DNA from: Acidobacteriaceae bacterium
Lineage (GTDB): Bacteria; Acidobacteriota; Terriglobia; Terriglobales; Acidobacteriaceae
Assembly (NCBI GenBank): GCA_003156805.1
Contig: PMHV01000024.1
Coordinates: 1-64,000, forward strand
Length of the DNA: 64,000 nt
Direction: 5' to 3'
Position 1 is the stretch's first letter, and each line of letters opens with the position of its first letter. Below, piece after piece: positions 7,639 through 19,507 of the stretch. Made by a program: the position numbers and the translations under genes. The notes under the pieces are model-generated. The model saw only the letters and a list, made by a program, of their open reading frames with translations, ran no database searches and was not told where the DNA came from.

Positions 7639-8574
7639 TCAGCGTCGCGCCGCGTTGCCCATCATCAGCGCGAAAAGAAGCGGAAGATAAACCACCGTGG
7701 CCTGTAACAAGCGGCGGGCCAGCATTTTAGACCGGGCGCTGGCCAGCGGCAGTTTCAGGAAAGCCAATCGAGCTCCAAAATAGAACAGGGAGACTCCCAA
7801 AATCACCGCACCCACCATATAAATCCTTCCCGCCATTCCCAGAACGCCAGGCAGGACGCTGATGGGGATGAGAATCACCGAATAGATCAGGATACGGCGG
7901 GCGGTTGAGCGCCCGTCTTCCTCCACCACGGGCAACATGCGAACACCGCCTTCGGCATAGTCTTCGCGGTAAAGCCACGCGATCGAGAAAAAGTGGGGGA
8001 ACTGCCAGACGAAGAGAATCGCGAACAGAACCAGAGTGCTCCACTCAAGGCGTCCGCGCGCCGCGGTCCAGCCGAGGACTCCGGGCATAGCTCCAGGAAA
8101 AGCGCCCACAAAGGTGCAGATGGGCGAGATGCGCTTGAGGGGAGTATAGGCAGCGAGGTAGACCACCGACGTTAGAAGAGTCAGCAGCCCAGTCAGCGGA
8201 TTGGAAAAAATTGCCAGGTAAATCGAGCCTCCAATCGCCGCGATCAGCCCCACGATGGTGGCGTGGAGCAAGGTCATGCGGCGGGCGGGGAGCGGACGCT
8301 GCGCGGTCCGGCGCATTTGCGCGTCCACGTCATGTTCCATCACTTCGTTGAGAGCGGCCGTGCCGCTGGAGACCAGGCCGATGCCCAGCAGAGCGTGAAA
8401 TAACCCCAGGCTAAACCAGGAGGCGCCGGCTTTTTGGGCGCCAAAAAAATAGCCGCACCACGCCGTCATGACAATGAGGCTCGTGACGCGAAGCTTGGTG
8501 AGTTCGGCGTAATCCCGCACAAGGGAAGTTGCACGGGTGCGTAAGGCGGAAAAAGGCAGTGTGATCGCGCTCAT
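7639..8574 (-). CDS. ctaB: Protoheme IX farnesyltransferase (heme O synthase)
   Basis: UbiA-family membrane prenyltransferase that adds a farnesyl group to heme B, giving heme O for heme-copper oxidases. 311 residues, normal length, with about eight or nine hydrophobic segments. The diagnostic prenyl-diphosphate/Mg site is NEVMEHDVDAQMRRTAQRPL, and the second Asp-rich loop is around WLYREDYAEGGVRMLPVVEE. Start MSAITLPFSALRTRATSLVR precedes the conserved YAELTKLRVTSLI. It lies 3 kb from the cytochrome oxidase operon at 11.6-19.5 kb, in the opposite orientation, and probably supplies its heme. Heme A synthase (CtaA) is not in the window. Confidence 0.93.
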   Translation of the reverse strand: MSAITLPFSALRTRATSLVRDYAELTKLRVTSLIVMTAWCGYFFGAQKAGASWFSLGLFHALLGIGLVSSGTAALNEVMEHDVDAQMRRTAQRPLPARRMTLLHATIVGLIAAIGGSIYLAIFSNPLTGLLTLLTSVVYLAAYTPLKRISPICTFVGAFPGAMPGVLGWTAARGRLEWSTLVLFAILFVWQFPHFFSIAWLYREDYAEGGVRMLPVVEEDGRSTARRILIYSVILIPISVLPGVLGMAGRIYMVGAVILGVSLFYFGARLAFLKLPLASARSKMLARRLLQATVVYLPLLFALMMGNAARR

Positions 8575-8740: not shown

Positions 8741-10069
8741 TTACTGGTTGGCAGAAAAGCCAGAAGAGTCAAAAGTTTCCGGCGGATCGAAAAAACATTG
8801 GTGCCAAAGGGCCGCATCCGACAGAGTACCAGCTTTCCATTGCTGAAGCGTGGGCAGAGTGGCGGCGATCATGCCTCCGTCGGCGGAATCGAAAATCAAT
8901 ACCAGCCCAGCCAGATCTTGCGGCTTCTTCGCAAGCTCCGCGTAATCCTTGTCGAACAAAGACTTGGCGAATGCCAGCTTGGCTTCGGACCCGCCATCCT
9001 TTTCGTTTTCATCTGCCTTCTGCACGCTGACAATCTTCACGTTCTTGCCCCGAAGAGGCTGCCAATCTCCCGGAAATGGCGCAGTTTCCTCCCGGCTGGC
9101 CCGAAACAGGTCGGCGGCGGCAGAGGTTGGCGCCGGGCCGGGGTGCGCGTCGGTGTCGGGAATACTATCGGGCATTTCCAGACTGTTGCGCCAGATCCAG
9201 CCGCGCGAAAGGCCGGAAATTCGGACATGAACCCAGTCCGGGTTGAAGTCCAACATTTCGAACTCGTCGTGCGCGCTGGCGAGAAACAGCGTCTTCGCAT
9301 TCAGGCTTGGTGTCGCGACCACGGCCGTGCCTGATTTTCTTACCGCCACCAGGTTCTTCGGATGAGCCTGATTTTTCAGAATCTCCTCCAGGCCGTCGGC
9401 CTCAGCTTTCAGACCGCTTGGATCCTCATCTCCCATCTTGTTTCGCGAGGTTTGCGAACCTTGCTGTTCCTGGGCGGCCAAACCCTGAGCCAAGGACGAA
9501 GAAAGCGCACCCCCGGTTTCGGGAAGCCTGGGCATGGGCGCCGCCAGCGTTGGCTCGGCCGCGGCCGGCTGTGTGGCCGACGGGGGCGTGACGGAAGTAA
9601 CCCCGCTCTTGCTGCCGAGAACCTCCGCCAACTGATCGAGCAGATCCTGTTCGAGGCGGCCATTCGAGGTCAGTAACTGGTAACCGGAGCGCGAAGCGAC
9701 GGAGTCCGCGTACCAGGCCGTCACTTTCGTGCTGATCCGCACTAGAGATCCGCCGGAAGCAGTCGAAACCACCTGCAGGGTGCATTGATAGTAGCCACGC
9801 TGATAGCGGTCCAGAGGATGATCCTTCGGAACGGCAAAGCCATCGAGAACCGGCAGCCGCCCGCCCAACGAGGATTGCAATTCCTGCAGCGCCTTTTCCA
9901 CCGTCACCTTGGATTGGGGAAAGGTCCGTTCGGTGGCATTGCCCTGTGCTGCTGCGCCTGCCGCATAAATCAGCAGCAAAGCGACAGCCAGCAGCGCTTG
10001 GATCCCAGGACCGCGGCCCGAAGCGAGGCTGTTCACGGCAGCAACTCCAATTGATCGCGAGGAATCCAT
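8741..10069 (-). CDS. Secreted protein with SH3-like domain
   Basis: 442 residues. A hydrophobic segment near the N-terminus (IQALLAVALLLIYAAGAAAQ) looks like a signal peptide, though a 25-residue leader precedes it. The N-terminal region (KALQELQSSLGGRLPVLDGF ... CTLQVVSTASGGSLVRISTK) reads as an alpha/beta domain of unknown type. A bacterial SH3-like segment follows: AVVATPSLNAKTLFLASAHD, DWVHVRISGLSRGWIWRNSL. The last 130 residues match nothing I recognise. The start lies inside the 3' end of the gene at 10033-11199 (37-bp overlap), so the two are probably translated together. SH3b domains in secreted proteins often bind peptidoglycan or peptides, but no function can be assigned. Confidence 0.65.
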   Translation of the reverse strand: MDSSRSIGVAAVNSLASGRGPGIQALLAVALLLIYAAGAAAQGNATERTFPQSKVTVEKALQELQSSLGGRLPVLDGFAVPKDHPLDRYQRGYYQCTLQVVSTASGGSLVRISTKVTAWYADSVASRSGYQLLTSNGRLEQDLLDQLAEVLGSKSGVTSVTPPSATQPAAAEPTLAAPMPRLPETGGALSSSLAQGLAAQEQQGSQTSRNKMGDEDPSGLKAEADGLEEILKNQAHPKNLVAVRKSGTAVVATPSLNAKTLFLASAHDEFEMLDFNPDWVHVRISGLSRGWIWRNSLEMPDSIPDTDAHPGPAPTSAAADLFRASREETAPFPGDWQPLRGKNVKIVSVQKADENEKDGGSEAKLAFAKSLFDKDYAELAKKPQDLAGLVLIFDSADGGMIAATLPTLQQWKAGTLSDAALWHQCFFDPPETFDSSGFSANQ

Positions 10070-11199
10070 CCATGCTGGCCGTCGTGGGTTTCCACTCCGA
10101 ACCAGTAGGGCGTGGAAATCACAATGAGAACCTCCGTACCAGTGGATAGAGACTTCAGGGTACTCGCCGTGTGGAAGGGTGCGGACTTGAGCGGAGCGCC
10201 GGGCGCTTTCACCAGCCGCTCCACCTGCCGGCGAAGATCCTGAACGCGCTGCTCCAAAGTCTGGGCCGGGGCGGATGCGGAGAGCTGTGAGGTTGAAGGC
10301 TCCGGGGTGGTGACCTCGACTCGATTTTCCATGACCGGCTGAGGTGTCGGGCCAGCTTGAGATTCTCGAGAGCTCGAAACCGGCGGGGATGAATTAGCGG
10401 AGGGATTTGCGCCATTCACGCCCAGGCGCTGTTTTCGCTCCACCTGCTCCTGCCGTTCCCTTTGCGCCTCGAGAGTCTCCTGCTTCATGGTTTCGATGGC
10501 GTCGAGGTGCTCCCGGATGTCTTTGTACTCGGCGGTTTCGACCGAACCGTTCGACTGGTGCACAGTGCGGCGGAAGTCCTCCTCATAGAGCGCGTCAATG
10601 CGCACGACGGTATTCTTGTCGCCTTGCCCGTGCACCACATAGCGCACGGCCAGCGTCCCGACATCCCCGCCATCTTTGAAGTTGCGCGGATCGAGCGCCT
10701 GCTTGCGCACCTTGTAGAAAACTTGTCCACCCTCGGTCCATGCGGGGAACACCGAGGAAGAAGCAACGGCGACAGCGCCGGTGATGTACTCGTCCTTGTT
10801 GTATTCCTTGGATCCACGGATGATCCCGCTCTGCACCACCTCCTGCACCACCTGCACCACTTCGGCTTCCGGCAACGGGATGTTGACGATGAGGCCCATG
10901 CCGTAATCGACTTTGTCCTTTTCGCGGCTTTGGAGGGGCAGAGCAGCCGCCAAGAACAGCAAGAAACCTGTTATTAGGCCGCACAGCAAGGCGTCAACTG
11001 AGGAGGGGGAAAATAGCCGGGTAACCGCCCCGCGGCCTGCCACCGGACTCGCGGGGACCGTCTCGGCTGTGCGAAACAGATCGGGAGCCAGCCACGTGCC
11101 GCCAACATCGTTTCGGAAATTCCTCCGGCTCCCCACTGCGAATCTCCCGTTTCCACACTGGCTGAGAGTCTCATACGCCGATGAGCGCAAGCCTGTCAA
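10033..11199 (-). CDS. Membrane-anchored or secreted protein with C-terminal SH3-like domain
   Basis: 388 residues from ATG 11199. A single hydrophobic helix (ALLCGLITGFLLFLAAALPL) lies about 70 residues in, so the true start may be further downstream or this may be a signal anchor. After it comes a domain with VEVVQEVV-like periodicity (LPEAEVVQVVQEVVQSGIIR, ALYEEDFRRTVHQSNGSVET), then a coiled-coil stretch (EAQRERQEQVERKQRLGV), a Ser/Pro-rich linker, a second short coiled coil (LEQRVQDLRRQVERLV) and a C-terminal SH3-like module (GTEVLIVISTPYWFGVETHD ... GWIPRDQLELLP). It forms a two-gene unit with the downstream SH3 gene. Function unknown. Confidence 0.65.
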   Translation of the reverse strand: MTGLRSSAYETLSQCGNGRFAVGSRRNFRNDVGGTWLAPDLFRTAETVPASPVAGRGAVTRLFSPSSVDALLCGLITGFLLFLAAALPLQSREKDKVDYGMGLIVNIPLPEAEVVQVVQEVVQSGIIRGSKEYNKDEYITGAVAVASSSVFPAWTEGGQVFYKVRKQALDPRNFKDGGDVGTLAVRYVVHGQGDKNTVVRIDALYEEDFRRTVHQSNGSVETAEYKDIREHLDAIETMKQETLEAQRERQEQVERKQRLGVNGANPSANSSPPVSSSRESQAGPTPQPVMENRVEVTTPEPSTSQLSASAPAQTLEQRVQDLRRQVERLVKAPGAPLKSAPFHTASTLKSLSTGTEVLIVISTPYWFGVETHDGQHGWIPRDQLELLP

Positions 11200-11364
11200 C
11201 TGGACCGGGCAATTTTCTCGAAATCGGGACGGGCCGCGAAATTAGCAGGCAGAACTGCAGGAAACTCACGAAAACTAAGGAGGGGAGAAAAAAATTGGGT
11301 ATTCACGTTAACACTATTTTTACAAAGACCGTTGTCACGAAAATGTAAGAAAGTGGATTTACCC

Positions 11365-11394
11365 CTTGAACTACGACTTGCAGTAGTAGTAGGA
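11365..11394 (+). promoter_or_regulatory. Candidate sigma70 promoter with internal palindrome
   Basis: TTGAAC at 11365-11370 and TAGGAT at 11389-11394 with an 18-bp spacer. The spacer carries ACTAC (11369-11373) and GTAGT (11382-11386), a 5-bp inverted repeat with 8 bp between the arms. That geometry suits a repressor site and loosely resembles BlaI/MecI-type TACTAC...GTAGTA operators. No such regulator is encoded in the window. Confidence 0.35.
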
Positions 11395-11535
11395 TTCCGC
11401 CCCGGTACGATGGTATGACCAATTCTGAAATTCAAGGGTCGCTCACTGACGGAGCAGAACGCCATCGGGAGGCGGGTTGCTGCTGGGCCTTCGTTTGCGC
11501 CTTCGGCATTGTGGAAGAAAGTCATCGCCACGAGA

Positions 11536-11577
11536 AACGATCTTTGTCTAACGATCTCTGTCTAACGATCTCTGTCT
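11536..11577 (+). repeat. 14-bp tandem repeat in the respiratory operon leader
   Basis: Three units of 14 bp: aacgatctttgtct, aacgatctctgtct, aacgatctctgtct. The array ends one base before the ribosome-binding site GAGGAG (11578-11583) of the porin-cytochrome gene, so copy-number change would alter the leader just upstream of the Shine-Dalgarno. Confidence 0.8.
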
Positions 11578-11589
11578 GAGGAGTAAGGC

Positions 11590-13038
11590 ATGGGTATGAT
11601 CAAGCAATCTCGCGTGGGTCCGAAATTTTCCTTTGCGACCTCCGTGGTAACGGCCGCACTGATGCTAACCATCCTGATGCTGAGTGCCAGCCAGCGGGCC
11701 AATGCCCTTCCGGCCTTCGCCCGGAAATACGGCCTGCGCTGCTCCGCTTGCCATGAATCCTGGCCGATGCTCAACTACTTCGGCCAGAAGTTCAAGGACA
11801 ACGGCTACCAGCTCATGAACGACCGTGATGCTCCGATCTGGCAGAATCCGGGCTATTGGCCGGTTACCTTCCGCATCACGCCGATCTGGCACCGGGTGAG
11901 CACCGGCAAAGTCGATATTGATACATACTCGGGCGGAGTGCTCTCAGGTTCGGCGATCCAGCGCGTCACGAGTTCCGGCTTTGACCTGAGCGGCCTCGAC
12001 TTCCACACGGGTGGCACGCTGGAAAAGAACTTCTCGTTCTACGTGCTGCCGTCTTCCGATCCGACGGCTTCTTTCCACTTTGAAACGGTCATGGCGCGGC
12101 TCGACAACCTTTTCGGCAGCTCTTGGCTCAACGTGAAGCTGGGCAAGTTCGAACTCGATAACCTGCTTTCAGAAAAGCGCATCCTGACGCTAACCGCTAA
12201 CGGGGGCATCTACCAGCTCTACCACTTCATCCCGGCGGGCGATGGCAACATCTTCGGCCAAATGGGAGACAACCAGCTCGGGGTTGAGGTGTTGGGCCAC
12301 TCGTACGACGACCGTACGCGCTACTCCGCAGCCCTGCTTAGCTCCAATGACGGTCAGGTGGAGCTATCCTATGGCAACGCCTACACGGGATTCGTTACCT
12401 TCAGTCAGGCCTTCGACACCGGCAAGGCTGGGGTGCAGCGCATTGGAGCCTACGCGATGGTCGGCGAGGCTCCAACCACGTGGCTCACTACCGGCGGCGC
12501 GCTCTTTACCGGCGCCAACGGCACTGGCCCCGCCGCGATCGGCAACAAGTCTTTCAGCCGTGAGGGCTTCGTTGGGCAATTCTACTTCGGCCAGCATGCC
12601 GACCTTACGGTTGTGACTCAGCATGGGCAGGATAGCGCTTGGTTCGGGCAAGGGTATGGCGATTTGATCGACGGGATCGTCACGAATAACAACACCACGG
12701 GGACGGTCTTGCCCGCTGGCTCACAGGCGCCGACGTGGAATGGCGTCTTGTTTGAGCCGCACTACGTCTACAGCCCGCAGCTCATCTTCATCGGGCGGTA
12801 CGAAACGATCCGGATGTCGCAGCAGGCCGACGGGCCGGGATCAGCCGTTCCTTCTGCTTCCAACCTTGGCAATATCTCGACGTACACCATCGGCTACCGC
12901 TACAACCCGTTCATGACCAGCCGGGCCGGCTTTGCGTGGCACAACGAGTACAACTGGTTGCACTCCGACGGCACGGGCCCGAACGGCGCCAACATCAACA
13001 CCAGCGAATTGTTGCTCGGCTTTGACTTTGACTTCTAG
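11590..13038 (+). CDS. Outer-membrane monoheme porin-cytochrome, Cyc2-like
   Basis: 482 residues. A signal peptide (to about residue 38, ending ...SQRANA) is followed at once by one c-type heme site, CSACH (51-55), in the context LPAFARKYGLRCSACHESWP and then LNYFGQKFKDNGYQ. The remaining 400 residues are rich in alternating polar/aromatic strands and end in LLLGFDFDF, a C-terminal Phe typical of BAM-folded beta-barrels. This layout, heme plug plus barrel in one chain, is that of Cyc2-type porin-cytochromes, some of which oxidise Fe(II) outside the cell. Other cytochrome-porins share the N-terminal motif, so the donor is inferred, not shown. First gene of the operon; ribosome-binding site GAGGAG. 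Confidence 0.72.
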   Translation: MGMIKQSRVGPKFSFATSVVTAALMLTILMLSASQRANALPAFARKYGLRCSACHESWPMLNYFGQKFKDNGYQLMNDRDAPIWQNPGYWPVTFRITPIWHRVSTGKVDIDTYSGGVLSGSAIQRVTSSGFDLSGLDFHTGGTLEKNFSFYVLPSSDPTASFHFETVMARLDNLFGSSWLNVKLGKFELDNLLSEKRILTLTANGGIYQLYHFIPAGDGNIFGQMGDNQLGVEVLGHSYDDRTRYSAALLSSNDGQVELSYGNAYTGFVTFSQAFDTGKAGVQRIGAYAMVGEAPTTWLTTGGALFTGANGTGPAAIGNKSFSREGFVGQFYFGQHADLTVVTQHGQDSAWFGQGYGDLIDGIVTNNNTTGTVLPAGSQAPTWNGVLFEPHYVYSPQLIFIGRYETIRMSQQADGPGSAVPSASNLGNISTYTIGYRYNPFMTSRAGFAWHNEYNWLHSDGTGPNGANINTSELLLGFDFDF

Positions 13039-13050
13039 AGAGGGACAGAC

Positions 13051-13920
13051 ATGCGGAGAACGTTGCGGAAGTGGTCGCCATTCATAGCTGCTGCTGCGGT
13101 TTTCGCCCTTGCTCCTGCTTTATCGGCGCAGCTAACTCAGTACGATCTGGAGCCGCGCTCGGGCATGGAAAGCCACATCGGGAATATTACCGGCCACGCC
13201 AAGGACGCCAAGGCCGACTACCGCCGCTTTTGCGTCGGTTGCCACGGCGAACTCGGCGACGGAAACGGCGAAAACTTTCCTTGGCTCGACCCCAAGCCCC
13301 GCGATTTCCAATTGGGCATATTTAAGTGCCGCTCCACCCCCACTGGGACTTTGCCCACCGACGAGGATTTATCCAACACCCTCGCTCGCGGCTTGGACCG
13401 GTCGAATATGCCGCAATGGAGCAACCTTACCAAGCAGCAGCGCGCCGACTTGGTGGCATGGGTCAAACATTTCTCCCCACGCTGGGTGAGTGAAAAGCCC
13501 GGCACGCCAATTCAGATTCCGGCAGAGCCAGAGGTCACACCGGAGCGCATCAAGGCGGGTCGCGATGTATTCGCCAAGGTGCAGTGCTGGAAGTGCCACG
13601 GCGTGGAGGGTAAAGCCGACGGGCCATCAGCCGCGACTCTCACCGACGATCAGGGCCGCCCTATCCTGGCCTTCAACTTCACTGAAGGGGCCAGGCCAAA
13701 GTGCGGATCTACGGATCAAGATTTGTATAAGATTTTCATGACCGGCTTGGACGGCACTCCGATGCCGTCGTTCGCGGATAACATTAAGCCGGATGAGGCT
13801 TGGGACTTGGTTTTCTACTTGAAGGCCCTCGAGCCCCAGAAGAGCAAAGAAAAAGCGATCGCCAAGCAACTGGGATTGAAACCGGTCGACCCCAATGCGC
13901 CGCCGCCCAGCGGGCAGTAG
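13051..13920 (+). CDS. Periplasmic diheme cytochrome c
   Basis: 289 residues with a signal peptide (MRRTLRKWSPFIAAAAVFAL...ALSA). Two cytochrome c domains are visible, each with one heme site: CVGCH at residues 61-65 and CWKCH at 179-183. Candidate axial Met residues are in NMPQW and GTPMPSF. The first domain contains CRSTPTGTLPTDEDL, a pattern common in cytochromes next to oxidases. It starts 12 bp after the porin-cytochrome stop with ribosome-binding site GAGGGA, so it is co-translated in the operon. It probably shuttles electrons through the periplasm towards the CuA subunit. The Pro-rich C-terminus (PNAPPPSGQ) is likely unstructured. Confidence 0.88.
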   Translation: MRRTLRKWSPFIAAAAVFALAPALSAQLTQYDLEPRSGMESHIGNITGHAKDAKADYRRFCVGCHGELGDGNGENFPWLDPKPRDFQLGIFKCRSTPTGTLPTDEDLSNTLARGLDRSNMPQWSNLTKQQRADLVAWVKHFSPRWVSEKPGTPIQIPAEPEVTPERIKAGRDVFAKVQCWKCHGVEGKADGPSAATLTDDQGRPILAFNFTEGARPKCGSTDQDLYKIFMTGLDGTPMPSFADNIKPDEAWDLVFYLKALEPQKSKEKAIAKQLGLKPVDPNAPPPSGQ

Positions 13921-13993
13921 TCATACAGCAAACCCGGCACGGCGCTGCGTTACGTTTGCGTTTTTTTGCACGTCTTTTTAAGGAGAGCCTTTC

Positions 13994-14743
13994 ATGAAGA
14001 GCCGCTACAGACGCATTCTTTCCGCTGTACTATCAACGGTAGTATTGATTGGTGGCGGCGCATTGATCCTAGGCCAGAGAGTCAATGCCGCCGGTGAAGG
14101 CAAGATTACCGGAAGTGTCAAACTCAATGGCGCCGCTCCCCACATGAAGGGCATCGACATGTCGAAAGACCCCTATTGCGCCAAAGCCCACGCCACCGAT
14201 CCCGGTCACTTGGAAACGGTAGTGGCTGGCGCAAACGGAGGATTGGAGAATGTGGTCCTCTACATTTCCGACGGCTTGTCTGGCAGCGCGCTCACTGACG
14301 TTCCCACGGCCGTCCCCGTGTTTGATCAGAAGAATTGCGTGTATACACCCCACGTATTGGCGATGGACATCGGCCAGAAATTCAAGGTGGTGACCAGCGA
14401 TCAGACGGCCCACAATATTCACCCGAACCCCAACCCGATGACCGGCAATATCCCGTGGAATCAGTCTCAGCCGCCGGGAGCGCCGCCAGTCGAGAAGAGC
14501 TGGAAAGCGGCGGAGGTGATTCCGGTGCAGTGCAACATCCATCCCTGGATGCACGGATGGTTCGTCGTGGTCAAAGGGCCCTATGCGACCACTGACAGCA
14601 GCGGTGCCTACACCATTAACAATGTGCCTCCGGGAAGCTACACGGTGACAGCGTGGCAGGAAGAGTACGGAACTCAGACACAGAAGGTCACAGTCGCTGG
14701 GGGACAGTCGGCGACTGCTGATTTCACGTTTAAGGCTAAGTAG
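13994..14743 (+). CDS. Cupredoxin-like protein with carboxypeptidase-regulatory domain
   Basis: 249 residues, signal peptide to about residue 33. The middle is a plastocyanin-like domain: a His in TSDQTAHNIHPNP (about 140) and the cluster QCNIHPWMHGWF supplying Cys180, His183 and Met186 (or His187), as in type 1 copper sites. The C-terminal 55 residues (ATTDSSGAYTINNVPPGSYT) are a carboxypeptidase-regulatory-like beta-sandwich. The N-terminal GKITGSVKLNGAAP is also beta-rich. Ribosome-binding site AAGGAG. Its position between the diheme cytochrome and CuA subunit II suggests a small electron carrier; copper binding is inferred from the motif only. Confidence 0.75.
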   Translation: MKSRYRRILSAVLSTVVLIGGGALILGQRVNAAGEGKITGSVKLNGAAPHMKGIDMSKDPYCAKAHATDPGHLETVVAGANGGLENVVLYISDGLSGSALTDVPTAVPVFDQKNCVYTPHVLAMDIGQKFKVVTSDQTAHNIHPNPNPMTGNIPWNQSQPPGAPPVEKSWKAAEVIPVQCNIHPWMHGWFVVVKGPYATTDSSGAYTINNVPPGSYTVTAWQEEYGTQTQKVTVAGGQSATADFTFKAK

Positions 14744-14833
14744 CAACCCAATCGACGCAGAATAGCCGCCGCAAACTCTGTTGCGACGGCTAGTTCCTAA
14801 AAGGAGGCCGCCTCGGAACCGGGCCGGACGAGG

Positions 14834-15643
14834 ATGTTTATGGCGAAACTCTTTGCAGTCACGATCCTACTGATCGCGATTGGATCGGCGATCCCGATTC
14901 TGCGCCACACCTGGGACGCACCACCCGATATCTCCACGCATGGCACTCTAATCGACGAACAAATGTCGGATACCATGGTGGAAGCTGGGATCTCGTTCCT
15001 GGTGTCGCAGATCCTCCTGGCTTTCTTCATCTGGAAATTTTCCAGTTCGCGTCCGAGCGACAAGATCAAGACTTTTCCAGGCGGCGCGAAGACCATCGTC
15101 TGGGCGGCCTTCCTTCTGGTAGGAACGGAAGTGCTGGCGCTGGGAGTCTTCGGAGTCAAGGCTTGGGCCAACGTATACCTGACCCCTCCTTCAGCGAACG
15201 CTCTGCCCATCCAGGTGCAGGCCGAGCAGTTTGCGTTTTACTTTCGTTACCCGGGACCCGATGGCACGTTCGGCCCTGTTCACCCGGAAATGATTAATGG
15301 GGCCACGGAAAATTTTTTCGGCATCGACCAGACCAATGATGCCGACTCGAAGGACGATATTGTCACTGCGGAGATGGCGATCCCAGTGAACCGCGAGATT
15401 CATCTGCTGATGCACGCGAAGGACGTGGGGCACTCGTTTTTTGTCCCAGAGTTACGGGTGCAGCAGGACTTTGTTCCCGGACTCGATCTCTCGGTGCACT
15501 TCACGGCCACCAGGATTGGTCGGTACGAGATTGTCTGTACCCAGCTTTGTGGTTTGGGACACTACAACATGAAGGCATACCTAAGTGTGTTGTCCGCCCA
15601 AAACTACGATGACTGGCTCAAGAAGCAAGCGGCGCTACAGTAA
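14834..15643 (+). CDS. coxB: Cytochrome c oxidase subunit II
   Basis: 269 residues. Two transmembrane helices (about 4-22 and 88-112, with a further hydrophobic stretch near 52-68) precede a periplasmic cupredoxin domain. The binuclear CuA site is complete: His200 in GHSFFVPELR, then Cys235, Cys239, His243 and Met246 in CTQLCGLGHYNM. Gln237 stands where many mitochondrial-type subunits have Glu (CSELCG); Gln variants are known. No C-terminal cytochrome c fusion, so electrons must come from the separate diheme cytochrome or cupredoxin. It receives electrons and passes them to heme a in subunit I. The start could be ATG 14834 or ATG 14840. Confidence 0.93.
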   Translation: MFMAKLFAVTILLIAIGSAIPILRHTWDAPPDISTHGTLIDEQMSDTMVEAGISFLVSQILLAFFIWKFSSSRPSDKIKTFPGGAKTIVWAAFLLVGTEVLALGVFGVKAWANVYLTPPSANALPIQVQAEQFAFYFRYPGPDGTFGPVHPEMINGATENFFGIDQTNDADSKDDIVTAEMAIPVNREIHLLMHAKDVGHSFFVPELRVQQDFVPGLDLSVHFTATRIGRYEIVCTQLCGLGHYNMKAYLSVLSAQNYDDWLKKQAALQ

Positions 15644-15709
15644 ATCATTCAACGGGGCTGCATGCTGCTGATGAGCATTTCTCAGAACACTGTTTCTCCG
15701 AGGTGAACC

Positions 15710-17488
15710 ATGCACGACGTGCCAGTCCATCACCATGCGCCTCCCACCAGCTTTCTCCGGAAGCACGTCTTCAGCCTGGACCACAAAGTAATCGGGAAGC
15801 AGTATTACGGGCTGGCTTTGATCGCGGTGTTTGTAGGAATGATACTTTCCTGGCTGATGCGCATCCATCTCGGCTGGACCAACTTGGCCATCCCCGGGTT
15901 GCAGCTGCTCTCCAAGTCCGGCGCTCCCGGCGGCATCATAACCCCGGAGTATTACCTCCAGTTGATGACCATGCATGCCACCATCATGGTCTTCTTCGTG
16001 CTGACGACTGCCCCCTTCGCTGCCTTCGGCAATTATTTCTTACCGATTCAGGTGGGTGCCGAAGACATGCCCTTCCCGCATTTCAACATGATGTCGTTCT
16101 GGGTAACCTTCATCGGCTTCGTAGTTCTGATGTCATCGTTTTTTGTGGGCGACGGTCCAACCTTGGGCGGCTGGACGCAGTACGCGCCGCTAAGCGCAGT
16201 TGGCGCGGTATCCGGTCCCGGACAGGGCACAGGCGTGGTACTGTGGGCGACTGCCATCGCGATCTTCTGCATTGGCCAGTTGCTCGGCTCGCTAAACTTC
16301 ATCACCACTACCCTCGACATGAGGACGCGCGGAATGAGCATGTGGCGGCTGCCGTTCAGTGCGTGGGCCTGGTTCATCACCTCCATCATGGGCCTGACCG
16401 CTTTTGCGGTATTGATGCCGGCCTGCATTCTGCTCATCCTTGACCACGTTGCCGGTACCAGCTTTTTTGTGCCGGGCAATCTGGTGATCAATGGCCAGAT
16501 TCAACCGCACTCGGGCGGTTCGACATTGCTCTGGCAACATCTTTTCTGGTTCTTCGGGCACCCTGAGGTTTACATCGCCATCGTGCCCGGCATGGGCATC
16601 GTCTCCCATGTCCTGACTCCGAATCTGCGCAGGCCGCTGTTGAGCCATCGAGTCATGGTTTACTCCATGGGAGCGCTGGCGGTTCTCAGCTACATGGTGT
16701 ACGGCCATCACATGTTCGTCAGCGGAATGAACCCAGTTTCTTCGCTGGTTTTCTCCTTCCCCACGCTTGTTATCACCATTCCTTCGACGATCGTCGTGCT
16801 CATCTGGATGGGAAGCCTCTATGGCGCCAAGTTGCGCATCAACTCCCCGTCCTTGTTCGCTCTGGGCTTCATCTCGATGTTCATCACCGGCGGAATCAGC
16901 GGATTCTTCCTGGCCCAGCCTTCCATCGACATCATGCTGCACGCAACCTACTTCGTGGTGGGCCACTTTCACCTGGTAATGGGCGTCGCGGCGATGTTCG
17001 GAATCTTTGCCGGAACCTATTTCTGGTTTCCCAAGATGTTTGGCCGGATGATGAACGAGACCCTGGGAAAGATCCACTTCTGGTTGAGTTTCGTGGGCGC
17101 TTATTGCATCTTCATGCCGTTCCATTATCTTGGAATTGCCGGCAATGTCCGCCGCTACCCGGCCTTTACCGACGATTACTTGCAGCCGCTGATTCCGCTG
17201 CACCGCTTCATCACCGTCGCCGCCGTGCTGACCGGGATAGCCCAGTTCATCTTTCTCTACAATCTGGTCCACAGCCGCTTCTGGGGAAAACCAGCGCCAG
17301 AGAACCCCTGGGAAGCCACCTCGCTGGAGTGGAGCACGCCGTCTTCGCCGCCTCCGTTTGACAACTTTGGCGGCAAACTTCCAACGGTTTATCACGATCC
17401 TCATCAGTATGGCGTCGAAGGCGCGTCGGCCGACTACGTGATGCAGACGTCGCCGGAACAAATCAAGAGCGGCCACGACGAGGCGTAA
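15710..17488 (+). CDS. coxA: Cytochrome c oxidase subunit I (A-type)
   Basis: 592 residues, twelve or more membrane helices; reduces O2 to water and pumps protons. Conserved residues: low-spin heme ligand His89 (MTMHATIM), CuB/cross-link motif His284-Pro-Glu286-Val-Tyr288 (FFGHPEVY), CuB pair HH 333-334 (VYGHHMFVSGM), and heme ligands in VVGHFHLVM. The D-channel entry Asp119 and Asn126 are kept (GAEDMPFPHFN), and the Glu of HPEVY makes this an A1-like enzyme. The C-terminal extension (from about 540) is polar. It starts with ribosome-binding site GAGG after coxB and continues into two coxC genes. Confidence 0.96.
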   Translation: MHDVPVHHHAPPTSFLRKHVFSLDHKVIGKQYYGLALIAVFVGMILSWLMRIHLGWTNLAIPGLQLLSKSGAPGGIITPEYYLQLMTMHATIMVFFVLTTAPFAAFGNYFLPIQVGAEDMPFPHFNMMSFWVTFIGFVVLMSSFFVGDGPTLGGWTQYAPLSAVGAVSGPGQGTGVVLWATAIAIFCIGQLLGSLNFITTTLDMRTRGMSMWRLPFSAWAWFITSIMGLTAFAVLMPACILLILDHVAGTSFFVPGNLVINGQIQPHSGGSTLLWQHLFWFFGHPEVYIAIVPGMGIVSHVLTPNLRRPLLSHRVMVYSMGALAVLSYMVYGHHMFVSGMNPVSSLVFSFPTLVITIPSTIVVLIWMGSLYGAKLRINSPSLFALGFISMFITGGISGFFLAQPSIDIMLHATYFVVGHFHLVMGVAAMFGIFAGTYFWFPKMFGRMMNETLGKIHFWLSFVGAYCIFMPFHYLGIAGNVRRYPAFTDDYLQPLIPLHRFITVAAVLTGIAQFIFLYNLVHSRFWGKPAPENPWEATSLEWSTPSSPPPFDNFGGKLPTVYHDPHQYGVEGASADYVMQTSPEQIKSGHDEA

Positions 17489-17527
17489 CCGGGAACCTTA
17501 GCCGTTAGTTAAGGCGGTCTAAAGTTT

Positions 17528-18205
17528 ATGGCGACCACAGTACATGAACCACCAAGAGCCGGACGAGAAGACGATTCCCCGCCACGGCCGTCCGGCAACG
17601 GCGGCGGACGAAACCTGATTCCGGCAAGCGGAGACTTGCGCGCTGTGAAACGCTACTCGCCACCGCCGGCCTTCACCGGTATCTGGGTGGTGCTCGCCTC
17701 GATTACGATGACTTTCCTGGCGTTCACCAGCGCCTTGGTCGTTCGCCAGGGGTCGGGCTCAGACTGGCGGCACCTCACTCTTCCCCGGGTCCTTTATCTG
17801 AACACACTGGTTCTATTCGCCAGCAGCATCGCACTCGAGATCGGGCGGCGGCAGGTTCGCGCGTTCTTCAAAGGCGTAAAGGACCGTGCAGCAAACCCCG
17901 CGCGCTGGCTGTCTATCGCCTTATTCCTCGGCTTGCTTTTTGTGGCGGGCCAAGTTGCGGCCTGGCTGCAATTGCGTTCGCGGGGACTCTACCTGGCCAC
18001 CGGTCCGAACAGTTCTTTTTTTTATGTGCTGACGGCGGCCCACGCAGTGCACGTGCTGGGCGGGCTGGGTGGACTGGCGCGGGTAATTCGCAAGCTGAAG
18101 CAATCGACGCTGCGAAAAAGTACGTTGGACGCTACCGCCCACTATTGGCATTTTATGGACGGTCTTTGGGTGTATCTGCTTTGGCTGCTGTGGATGAAAC
18201 TGTAA
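17528..18205 (+). CDS. Cytochrome c oxidase subunit III family protein (first paralogue)
   Basis: 225 residues. A charged, Gly/Pro-rich 45-residue N-terminus is followed by about five membrane helices. Family features: FTGIWVVLASITMTFLAF, AWLQLRSRGLYLATGPNSSF, FYVLTAAHAVHVLGGLGGL and the C-terminal ATAHYWHFMDGLWVYLLWLL, the HYWHFMDxxW signature of subunit III. It lies directly between coxA and a second subunit III homologue, with 25 bp to the latter. Together they probably make up the subunit III part of the complex, as in oxidases where subunit III is split or doubled. Which one occupies the canonical place is not clear. Confidence 0.85.
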   Translation: MATTVHEPPRAGREDDSPPRPSGNGGGRNLIPASGDLRAVKRYSPPPAFTGIWVVLASITMTFLAFTSALVVRQGSGSDWRHLTLPRVLYLNTLVLFASSIALEIGRRQVRAFFKGVKDRAANPARWLSIALFLGLLFVAGQVAAWLQLRSRGLYLATGPNSSFFYVLTAAHAVHVLGGLGGLARVIRKLKQSTLRKSTLDATAHYWHFMDGLWVYLLWLLWMKL

Positions 18206-18230
18206 CACTGAGAAAAAATCAGGAGGGGCC

Positions 18231-18848
18231 GTGAGCCACGCCGATTTGACCTTGGAAGGATACTCCGCGGCGATAATGCCGCCCGCATTCTCGATTCCTG
18301 CGAAAAAGATGGCGATGTGGCTTTTCATCATCGCCGACTCGGCCACGTTTGCCGCGTGCCTGGTGGCTTATGGTTATCTCCGCGTCGCCGATGCCCACTG
18401 GCCCAGACCCTTCCACAGCATCACGAACGTAGCCATCATGACGGTGATTCTAGTCACCAGCAGCCTGACCATGCTCTTTGGCATCGATGCAGCCAAGGCG
18501 GGGGACAAAGCGAAGGCCGTCCGCTGGACCATGATCACCGCCGCCGGCGGCATTCTTTTTGCCCTCCTGCACATTCGCGAGTGGCTTGGACTGATCGACG
18601 AAGGCATGCGCTTGTTTCAGAATCCCTGGGGCTCGGCCCTGTTCGGCGCATCTTTTTTCAGCATCACTGGTTTGCACCTTTTGCACGTGACCGGTGGCGT
18701 CATTGCGTTAATTGTAGTCGGCATTCGCTACAAGGGCGGCCGTTACAATTCTGACGATTTAGAAATCACCGGCCTCTACTGGCACTTTGTGGATCTGGTC
18801 TGGATGTTTGTGGTGCCGCTGGTCTATCTTTTAAACCTTTCCCACTAA
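18231..18848 (+). CDS. Cytochrome c oxidase subunit III family protein (second paralogue)
   Basis: 205 residues from GTG 18231, which follows a strong AGGAGGGG ribosome-binding site. About five membrane helices. Family features: KKMAMWLFIIADSATFAACL, the conserved REWLGLIDEGMRLFQNPWGS, FFSITGLHLLHVTGG and the terminal TGLYWHFVDLVWMFVVPLVY. This copy is closer to the usual heme-copper subunit III in its C-terminal signature (YWHFVDxVW). It is followed 25 bp later by subunit IV. Confidence 0.88.
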   Translation: MSHADLTLEGYSAAIMPPAFSIPAKKMAMWLFIIADSATFAACLVAYGYLRVADAHWPRPFHSITNVAIMTVILVTSSLTMLFGIDAAKAGDKAKAVRWTMITAAGGILFALLHIREWLGLIDEGMRLFQNPWGSALFGASFFSITGLHLLHVTGGVIALIVVGIRYKGGRYNSDDLEITGLYWHFVDLVWMFVVPLVYLLNLSH

Positions 18849-18873
18849 AGGATCCCGTCAGGAGATCGAAGCT

Positions 18874-19185
18874 ATGGCAACTGCCGAAGCGCATCGCAGC
18901 AGCACCGGGAAATACATCGTGGTATACGTCTGCATTCTCGCAATCGCGGCACTGCAGTTTGTCATCGCCTACTCCAATCTCGATGGATCGCAGATGCTGG
19001 CCCGCATGTTAGTGCTGGCCACCATCGAAGCAGCCCTGGCGGTTTTGTTTTTCATGCATCTGTGGATGGAGAATCGCGGGCTGCTCTGGTTCGTCGTGAT
19101 TCTCACAGGATTCGTCATCTTTGCGATGCAATATAGCTGGACTGACAGTTTCCGTCTGCTGAACGGCGTTCCGTGGGCGAAGTAG
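18874..19185 (+). CDS. Cytochrome c oxidase subunit IV family protein
   Basis: 103 residues with three predicted helices: YIVVYVCILAIAALQFVIAY, MLARMLVLATIEAALAVLFF and WFVVILTGFVIFAMQYSW. The motif ATIEAALAVLFFMHL is typical of the small prokaryotic COX4/COX4_pro subunit. It supports assembly or stability of the oxidase and is not catalytic. Ribosome-binding site GGAGA, 25 bp after the second subunit III gene. Confidence 0.82.
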   Translation: MATAEAHRSSTGKYIVVYVCILAIAALQFVIAYSNLDGSQMLARMLVLATIEAALAVLFFMHLWMENRGLLWFVVILTGFVIFAMQYSWTDSFRLLNGVPWAK

Positions 19186-19216
19186 TACCCCGAGACGCCG
19201 TGGTAAGGAGGAGTTA

Positions 19217-19507
19217 ATGAAGACTCTCAAATCAGCCCAGGCCGCAAGCTTCGCGCTGGCAGCGCTGGTTGTGCTGTTGGCTGCCCCGTCGGCCTTTTCG
19301 CAGAACTGTGCTCTCTGTTACACGCAAGCCGCTTCTGCGGGATCTCGCATGATTCAAGCGCTGCGCAGCGGAATTCTGGTGCTGATTATTCCTCCCACAT
19401 TCATGTCTGTCGGCATGATTTTCGTGGTTCGCCACAAGAGCAATCAGTTCAAGCGGAACGACGAAGACGCAGATGACGACGACCGCTATGACAGGCAGGA
19501 TTCTTAA
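19217..19507 (+). CDS. Small secreted/membrane protein with CALC motif, end of oxidase operon
   Basis: 96 residues. A signal peptide (MKTLKSAQAASFALAALVVL...AFS) is followed by QNCALCYTQAASAG, one CxxC pair just after the predicted cleavage site, then a membrane helix (GILVLIIPPTFMSVGMIFVV) and a charged, Asp-rich cytoplasmic tail (NDEDADDDDRYDRQD). Strong AAGGAGG ribosome-binding site, 31 bp after subunit IV. I recognise similar small proteins beside oxidase genes but know of no assigned function; a role in copper or thiol handling during assembly is only a guess. Confidence 0.6.
   Translation: MKTLKSAQAASFALAALVVLLAAPSAFSQNCALCYTQAASAGSRMIQALRSGILVLIIPPTFMSVGMIFVVRHKSNQFKRNDEDADDDDRYDRQDS

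Follow-up and report, generated by a model that had tools for sequence, protein, structure and literature searches.

A Cyc2-like porin-cytochrome operon with a heme-copper oxidase lacking the K-channel lysine in Acidobacteria, and its possible role in extracellular electron uptake

Gene content and conservation of the locus

The 64,000-nucleotide window analyzed in this study (positions 1 to 64,000 of contig PMHV01000024.1, assembly GCA_003156805.1, from an Acidobacteriaceae bacterium) carries an operon that joins a Cyc2-like porin-cytochrome to a heme-copper oxidase. At 11590-19507, nine open reading frames (ORFs) lie on the + strand with intergenic gaps of 12-90 bp, in the order cyc2 - diheme c - cupredoxin - coxB - coxA - coxC - coxC' - coxD - orf96. 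The first gene (11590..13038) encodes a Cyc2-like fused monoheme cytochrome-porin of 482 aa, whose heme segment is located at 11704..11772. It is followed by the gene for a 289-aa, presumably periplasmic diheme cytochrome c (13051..13920), in which the predicted pair of hemes is represented by two CXXCH motifs and two Pfam Cytochrom_C stretches, and by the gene for a 249-aa type-1 copper cupredoxin, predicted to lie within a split transthyretin/carboxypeptidase-regulatory-like domain (13994..14743). In the Pfam search of the window, the next five genes matched COX2, COX1, COX3 (twice) and COX4: coxB (subunit II, 14834..15643; E 3.3e-11), with the CuA ligand motif CTQLCGLGHYNM; coxA (subunit I, 15710..17488; E 1.1e-125); the subunit III-like coxC1 (17528..18205; E 4.1e-08) and coxC2 (coxC', GTG start, 18231..18848; E 1.1e-12); and the subunit IV-like coxD (18874..19185; COX4_pro, E 7.4e-08). 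The operon thus holds the heme-copper oxidase that the original prediction had read from the sequence. The last gene, orf96 (19217..19507), encodes a 96-aa membrane protein of unassigned role that contains CALCYTQAASAG and has no family over cut-off. It gave tblastn matches in 18 of 22 other acidobacterial cox regions, all without cyc2, and is a general companion, frequently the last gene, of acidobacterial cox clusters.

The conserved unit exceeds the nine genes described earlier. A divergent pair at 8741-11199 belongs to it as well, and in many cases so does ctaB; all three are on the - strand in the window. The two divergent genes encode predicted secreted proteins with weak SH3-like domains and are probable accessory genes: sh3A (8741..10069; 442 aa; SH3_3 E 0.0053, under the curated cut-off) and sh3B (10033..11199; up to 388 aa, the start codon being uncertain; C-terminal SH3_3 E 0.018, under the cut-off). 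Next to them lies ctaB (7639..8574), for the heme O synthase of the heme A pathway (TIGR01473, 251.6 bits against a cut-off of 210.3). Judged by its position, the divergent intergenic region (11200..11589) presumably holds the promoters of both gene sets; no sigma-70-like consensus promoter was found in it upstream of cyc2. No terminator was found downstream of orf96, the sole match falling inside that gene.

A scan of 84,980 species genomes yielded 271 relatives, of which the best 80, a set that favors close relatives, were analyzed; all 80 are acidobacterial metagenome-assembled genomes (MAGs). According to record titles, 24 of these loci are labelled palsa, bog or fen, and others Ca. Sulfotelmatobacter, Ca. 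Acidiferrum or Acidipila. In the survey of gene order, which the original prediction had proposed, 56 loci extended 7.5 kb or more past the end of cyc2, and 50 of them showed the nine genes in exactly the same order, so the arrangement is not a matter of chance. The six deviating loci are permuted (L083, L090), have no coxC1 match (L149), or show no cox gene after the cupredoxin (L085, L145, L147).

The SH3-like genes are nearly as constant. Matches to sh3A and sh3B were found at 68 and 69 of the 80 loci, respectively, and both at 64 of the 68 loci with more than 3 kb upstream of cyc2 (lacking at L122, L124, L145 and L147). A ctaB match, upstream and divergent or downstream, is present at 42 of the 80. 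The genes flanking the other side are rarely kept where there is room for them (amidohydrolase 7 of 52 loci, glnD 1 of 49). A second sample comprised 297 Acidobacteriota genomes, 75 of them with some Cyc2-type match, while end-to-end matches to the Cyc2-like protein of the window (55-100% identity) were confined to four (G000, G084, G210, G073); three others (G278, G169, G266) have long matches at 31-40% identity. Across that sample, sh3A occurs in the four genomes with end-to-end matches (at least 55% identity) and marginally in G099 (E 8.8e-6); among the 31 sampled genomes of the bacterium's own family, it was detected at E up to 1e-5 in those four only. The SH3-like genes also follow cyc2 through rearrangement: the pair lies downstream on the + strand at L149, and in G073 (L033) SH3-like genes stand between the diheme and cupredoxin genes. 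This suggests a functional tie between the pair and cyc2, for example in assembly of the heme-porin or in docking of the periplasmic carriers, and makes the two proteins new candidate partners of a Cyc2-type protein.

Synteny common to all acidobacterial cox clusters was considered as an explanation of this conservation and rejected. Ordinary coxB-coxA-coxC-coxC'-coxD-orf96 clusters have the same subunit set, in the same order in most regions. However, no cyc2 or diheme match was found in 22 such stretches (the two other COX1 clusters of this genome and 20 further regions, 7-19.5 kb each), and the flanking genes are kept far less often than the SH3-like pair.

The porin-cytochrome and its predicted carriers

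The Pfam and NCBI family libraries returned no family over cut-off for the Cyc2-like protein; its identification was therefore based on motif, structure and synteny. The Cyc2 family has been defined by the sequence AXPXFAR[Q/K][T/Y] before a CXXCH, PXL after it, a minimum length of 365 aa, and fusion to a 16-strand porin like OprO/OprP, the folds published for Cyc2-PV1; the AXPXFAR[QK][TY] consensus is called unique to Cyc2 in that account (PMC8406198). The product of gene 1 contains a single CXXCH, within ALPAFARKYGLRCSACHESWPML, and ends in Phe. Its heme segment reads ALPAFARKY, GLR, CSACH, ESW and PML in succession, with the consensus at residues 39-47, CSACH at 51-55 and PXL at 59-61. In an alignment of 63 sequences (the window and 62 of the 80 loci, picked for clean near-complete matches), P41, F43-Y47, C51, C54, H55, P59 and L61 were invariant, and A39 was conserved in at least 90%.

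An AlphaFold2 model built from this alignment (pLDDT 78.3, pTM 0.75) has 16 strands by DSSP. Among the 50 Foldseek rows listed, OprO (TM 0.53) and OprP (TM 0.51) had the top query-normalised scores, and alignments to porins of the OprO/OprP/PorB kind reached Z 24.4 (OprP 24.2, OprO 23.8). A hydrophobic N-terminal helix at residues 12-33 was seen in the model rather than called by a signal-peptide predictor. The original prediction had described this product as a monoheme barrel with a terminal Phe and had staked its reading on the barrel; motif, single heme site and the 16-strand model all agree with that description. By the testable parts of the published definition, gene 1 encodes a Cyc2-family protein.

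The best, and only near full-length, PDB match of the diheme cytochrome is 6h5l_B (E 2e-56, residues 51-265 of 289); no c4-named entry occurs among its 19 PDB matches (E up to 1). We take 6h5l_B to be kustc0457, the diheme partner of an anammox octaheme HAO-like protein. The kustc0457/kustc0458 couple has been described as a diheme and octaheme pair (PMC6423088), whereas here the diheme protein accompanies a Cyc2-like protein and an oxidase. Its gene lies within 400 bp downstream of cyc2 at 78 of the 80 loci; the other two (L124, L128) end just past cyc2. Among the 31 genomes of the own family, it was detected (E up to 1e-25) in the four with end-to-end Cyc2 matches only. Relatives are common outside that family, with 63 of the 297 genomes positive overall.

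In the cupredoxin, the predicted CNIHPWM motif (CxxHxxM) is present, and Pfam detects the carboxypeptidase-regulatory-like part only. The predicted structure (pLDDT 88.9) shows a plastocyanin/amicyanin-like fold over residues 105-193 (Z ~9), and the rest of the protein, in which a strand at residues 36-45 joins the C-terminal part, resembles the transthyretin-like (TTR) domain of carboxypeptidase D (Z 11). In the model, the cupredoxin domain is inserted into a split transthyretin-like domain. The presumed type-1 copper ligands H140, C180, H183 and M186 were invariant in all 51 aligned cupredoxins (alignment drawn from 50 of the 80 loci with clean near-complete matches; L082, with a stop inside the matched stretch, was excluded). 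The CxxHxxM spacing is unlike that of rusticyanin, and the genome, which is 95% complete, gave no rusticyanin match (TIGR03095, E 0.001). AcoP was not among the profile or fold matches of the cupredoxin, nor rusticyanin among the fold matches, a result that is uninformative alone, the presence of AcoP in the libraries being unchecked.

The idea that pairing with such a cupredoxin is special to this operon was rejected. Among 31 Cyc2-motif ORFs at 40 survey loci, 19 have a cupredoxin gene of this kind within 1.5 kb on the same strand, with the copper ligands preserved, and only 5 have a diheme gene nearby. Cupredoxin matches were also found in 10 of the 22 acidobacterial cox regions without cyc2; in 7 of these the match and coxB are no more than about 2.5 kb apart.

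Some variation was observed around these genes. At L092 (13240-14187), an extra gene, judged by eye to encode a STAS/anti-sigma-antagonist-like domain, lies between the cupredoxin gene and coxB, and L084, L089 and L093 have a gap of about 1 kb at the same place. At L049 (9380-17731), a Cyc2-motif gene is followed by a cupredoxin gene, an ORF with eight CXXCH motifs and, a few kb further, a diheme-like match. The cyc2-cupredoxin-diheme spacing recurs at L046, L048, L050, L054, L057 and L064; the octaheme ORF was looked for at L049 alone.

The linked oxidase and its proton channels

The oxidase encoded beside cyc2 (hereafter, linked) is divergent, as its subunits fall under the NCBI equivalog cut-offs (COX1 532.8 bits against 670.75 for CtaD/CoxA; COX2 113.6 against 147.7 for CoxB). 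All five residues tested in coxA are present, namely N113, D124 and N131 of the D-channel, plus E278 and Y280 (numbering from PMC3084760; N199, Y35, S134 and S193 lie outside the tested set). The same published classification lists Lys354 of the K-channel as part of type A enzymes (PMC3084760). In the coxA of the window, the equivalent residue is Val362 (16793-16795), a position confirmed by alignment to mycobacterial COX1. All 54 other linked COX1 rows carry V, I, L or M at this site, so that no lysine occurs in 55 rows including the window. These rows comprise matches longer than 1500 bp with frames longer than 450 aa and represent 53 distinct sequences (L031/L088 and L032/L130 are the same DNA in two collections); cut or split coxA loci and L121 (161 aa) were not counted. 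The lysine is kept in 21 of 22 COX1 from regions checked as free of cyc2, and in 27 of 31 when nine rows from contigs without a cyc2 match are added (6 of the nine with lysine; surroundings inspected for three). Subunit II changes in parallel: the conserved Glu, which we take to be the K-channel entrance, is replaced by Val89 in the window and is absent from all 59 linked coxB (58 and the window), whereas it is present in 20 of 21 others, the sole exception being G147.

The original prediction of an A-type oxidase stands as far as the tested D-channel residues and the Glu278-Tyr280 pair are concerned, and has to be qualified at the K-channel. Since Lys354 is absent, the enzyme is better described as an A-type-like variant than as a canonical A1 member. 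Removal of this lysine is crippling in standard enzymes, and the linked oxidases must therefore take up protons otherwise.

In a quick tree, the linked coxA formed one clade (support 100) with a single unlinked row inside, that of G147, so the loss marks the clade; a single event may account for it. Loss exclusive to linkage with cyc2 was rejected, as the COX1 of G147, G266, G290 and G017 also have no lysine and no cyc2 was seen beside them; the contigs of G266 and G290 end too close to coxB to show whether cyc2 adjoins. The sequences of G266, G290 and G017 indicate that other parts of the phylum have undergone, or retained, the loss as well. That family A has lost the K-channel repeatedly was already discussed, with an archaeal COX1 tree, in a paper on heme A oxidases (PMC8239418); the loss as such is therefore not new. 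Among COX1 only 47-49% identical to that of the window, those at L243, L186 and L188/L244 are without the lysine (ITVPFAVVGV or ITIPMAVVGV), and in each of these three genomes Cyc2-type matches lie on contigs other than that of the COX1.

Several genomes combine these parts differently. In G147 (L189:651-12684), a K-less oxidase and a cupredoxin are preceded by three genes in place of cyc2 and diheme, which encode an OMP_b-brl_4 receptor-like protein, an LVIVD-repeat-like protein (under cut-off) and, with a single CXXCH, a Vgb_lyase/carboxypeptidase-regulatory protein. In G278, a distant acidobacterium (L034:6803-12998), cupredoxin, cyc2 and diheme genes precede a gene of the COX1 family and one for a fusion of FixO with cytochrome c, indicative of a cbb3-like oxidase. 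G073 has the module without an adjoining oxidase, and its single COX1 match (E up to 1e-100) is on another contig. These arrangements suggest that the cyc2-diheme-cupredoxin set is an inlet module able to combine with more than one kind of oxidase. At L083 (1817-9603) and L090 (6677-14840), the cyc2-diheme-cupredoxin genes closely resemble those of the window, the oxidase is far more divergent and coxC1 has moved before coxB, an apparent exchange of the oxidase in place.

Electron uptake and its alternatives

A CuA oxidase encoded in the same gene run as a porin-cytochrome and two carriers fits an inward flow of electrons to O2. With a probability of roughly 0.6, we propose that the operon is a dedicated electron-uptake respiratory branch leading from an extracellular donor, most likely Fe(II), to O2. 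The Cyc2-family protein in the outer membrane would accept electrons from a small soluble extracellular donor through a single heme located where the barrel opens to the periplasm; the two carriers, diheme cytochrome c and cupredoxin, probably in this order, would take them across the periplasm to the CuA site; and the matched aa3-like oxidase would reduce O2 and conserve energy via the D-channel, the canonical K-channel being gone. Fe(II) is the most likely donor by analogy with the family and by synteny. The passage of electrons from outside the cell to O2, first suggested in the original prediction, continues to be the best reading of the Cyc2 motif, the barrel model, the carriers and the dedicated oxidase in one operon. 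The linked oxidase is one of three COX1-containing oxidases in the genome, as expected of a special-purpose enzyme.

Several observations weigh against this proposal. No RuBisCO large-subunit gene was found in the genome, which leaves no Calvin-cycle lithoautotrophy, and four Cytochrome_C7 matches on three contigs indicate possible other electron routes. The heme segment of the Cyc2-like model is of low confidence (block means 36-50 over approximately residues 31-90), and the heme position was for this reason taken from the literature. A quick tree of Cyc2-like proteins, built without bootstrap or characterised Cyc2 references and thus answering the proposed phylogenetic check in part, separates proteobacterial plasmid-borne proteins by a long branch from the acidobacterial ones. 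Cluster 3 is the group whose function the Cyc2 authors call most uncertain (PMC8406198). At five loci, cyc2 and diheme occur with no oxidase seen alongside (L033, L035 on a 9.2-kb contig, L085, L145, L147), and G147 has the oxidase and cupredoxin without cyc2. Considering the two other COX1 genes, a cytochrome b gene, the Cytochrome_C7 matches and the missing RuBisCO, electron uptake through this operon would more likely be an auxiliary, mixotrophic activity than a basis for Calvin-cycle autotrophy.

The strongest competitor, unlikely in our view though well ahead of the others, keeps the same inlet and assumes that in acidic peat the natural donor is a humic quinone in reduced form, Fe(II) bound in an organic complex, Cu(I) or Mn(II), in place of free Fe(II). 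Palsa, bog and fen, the labels of 24 of the 80 loci, are habitats rich in humic matter. A one-heme barrel would restrict the donor only to molecules that enter the pore, and the family is divergent, with the uncertainty about Cluster 3 already mentioned. However, one Cyc2 protein from each of the three clusters has been characterised, and all three oxidize Fe(II) (PMC8406198); no donor-specific companion gene was recognised.

Detoxification, in which the system would oxidize Fe(II) or Cu(I) reaching the cell surface or the periplasm and the oxidase would drain off the electrons without energy gain, is improbable. It would agree with the missing RuBisCO, with the link of the rus-operon cupredoxin AcoP to copper resistance (PMC7463520), and with an RND-like gene set seen by eye beside cyc2-diheme at L035; yet a complete multi-subunit oxidase whose tested D-channel residues are intact, together with two carriers, looks like energy conservation. 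Still less probable is that the barrel serves as a porin for nutrients or copper, its heme being structural or sensory, and that the operon amounts to a variant of a cytochrome oxidase cluster plus assembly factors. The cupredoxins near cyc2-free cox clusters (10 of 22 regions) would suit it, but the heme segment is invariant, the diheme gene almost always follows the barrel gene, and within the sampled family it is confined to cyc2 carriers. Export of electrons through the barrel to an extracellular acceptor, as in porin-cytochromes of other families that work outward, is the least credible reading, as the partner is an O2-reducing oxidase (or the cbb3-like one in G278) and the operon encodes no multiheme protein.

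The proposed electron-uptake branch has a parallel in the Acidithiobacillus rus operon, for which the order cyc2-cyc1-cup-coxBACD-rus has been published (PMC10654088). By function class, the order is the same here (porin-cytochrome, diheme, cupredoxin, coxB, A, C, D, with ctaB nearby), and the architecture is therefore of a known kind. The two differ in their parts. The rus operon includes rusticyanin, for which no gene was found in this genome, and its Cyc1 is a c4 cytochrome, whereas the best solved match of the present diheme is 6h5l_B. On a comparison by published gene order, the operon described here further differs in the cupredoxin in a split TTR-like domain, the second coxC, orf96 and the two divergent SH3-like genes; its coxA is also without the K-channel lysine. 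It follows that the operon would work like a rus operon without being classed as one. The claim that a cupredoxin in place of rusticyanin makes the wiring unlike described systems has to be narrowed accordingly: a cupredoxin, cup, holds the same place in the rus operon (PMC10654088), while the different carrier kinds and the lack of a rusticyanin match support the claim. The resemblance may reflect convergence or a common ancestral operon. More tentatively, at somewhat short of even odds, this could be the own counterpart, in peat and soil acidobacteria, of the acidophilic iron-oxidation operon, with largely non-orthologous carriers, an aa3 oxidase that has no K-channel, works through the D-channel alone and is tuned to a donor of high potential, and two new SH3-like envelope proteins assisting.

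Acidobacterial relatives of these proteins are already in print, since a published network groups acidobacterial homologues in one cluster with Cyt572, the iron oxidase of Leptospirillum (PMC10654088). A description of the operon was not found in the titles and abstract openings of open-access papers listed for acidobacterial Cyc2, subscription papers being outside the search. What is new is such an operon in this phylum, together with its distinct carriers, the two SH3-like genes and an oxidase without the K-channel lysine. In acidic wetlands, a habitat in which Acidobacteria are prominent, the redox cycling of iron affects the turnover of carbon. In a 2018 account of peatland acidobacterial MAGs, including Ca. 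Sulfotelmatobacter, dissimilatory iron genes were stated to be absent except for one putative metal reductase (PMC6018796); the operon was found in other MAGs labelled Ca. Sulfotelmatobacter. If the proposal is true, some peat and soil acidobacteria deemed plain heterotrophs become candidate mixotrophic Fe(II) oxidizers, and a working operon would point to overlooked candidates among the Fe(II) oxidizers of bogs and supply a set of marker genes for them. A natural family of aa3-like oxidases without the K-channel lysine and the subunit II Glu would also permit a direct test of how many protons need the K route.

The Cyc2-like proteins of two loci from the bacterium's own family (L069:9646-11040 and L070:8622-9965) group with the proteobacterial plasmid-borne ones in the quick Cyc2 tree, outside the acidobacterial branch, a placement that suggests transfer between phyla. 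Four plasmid neighborhoods of such proteins were examined and no rus operon was found in them. On a plasmid from Caballeronia (L151:6945-9962), genes for a HiPIP, a Cyc2-like protein and a c-type cytochrome stand in a row; the annotated start of the Cyc2-like coding sequence falls after the heme motif and looks wrong.

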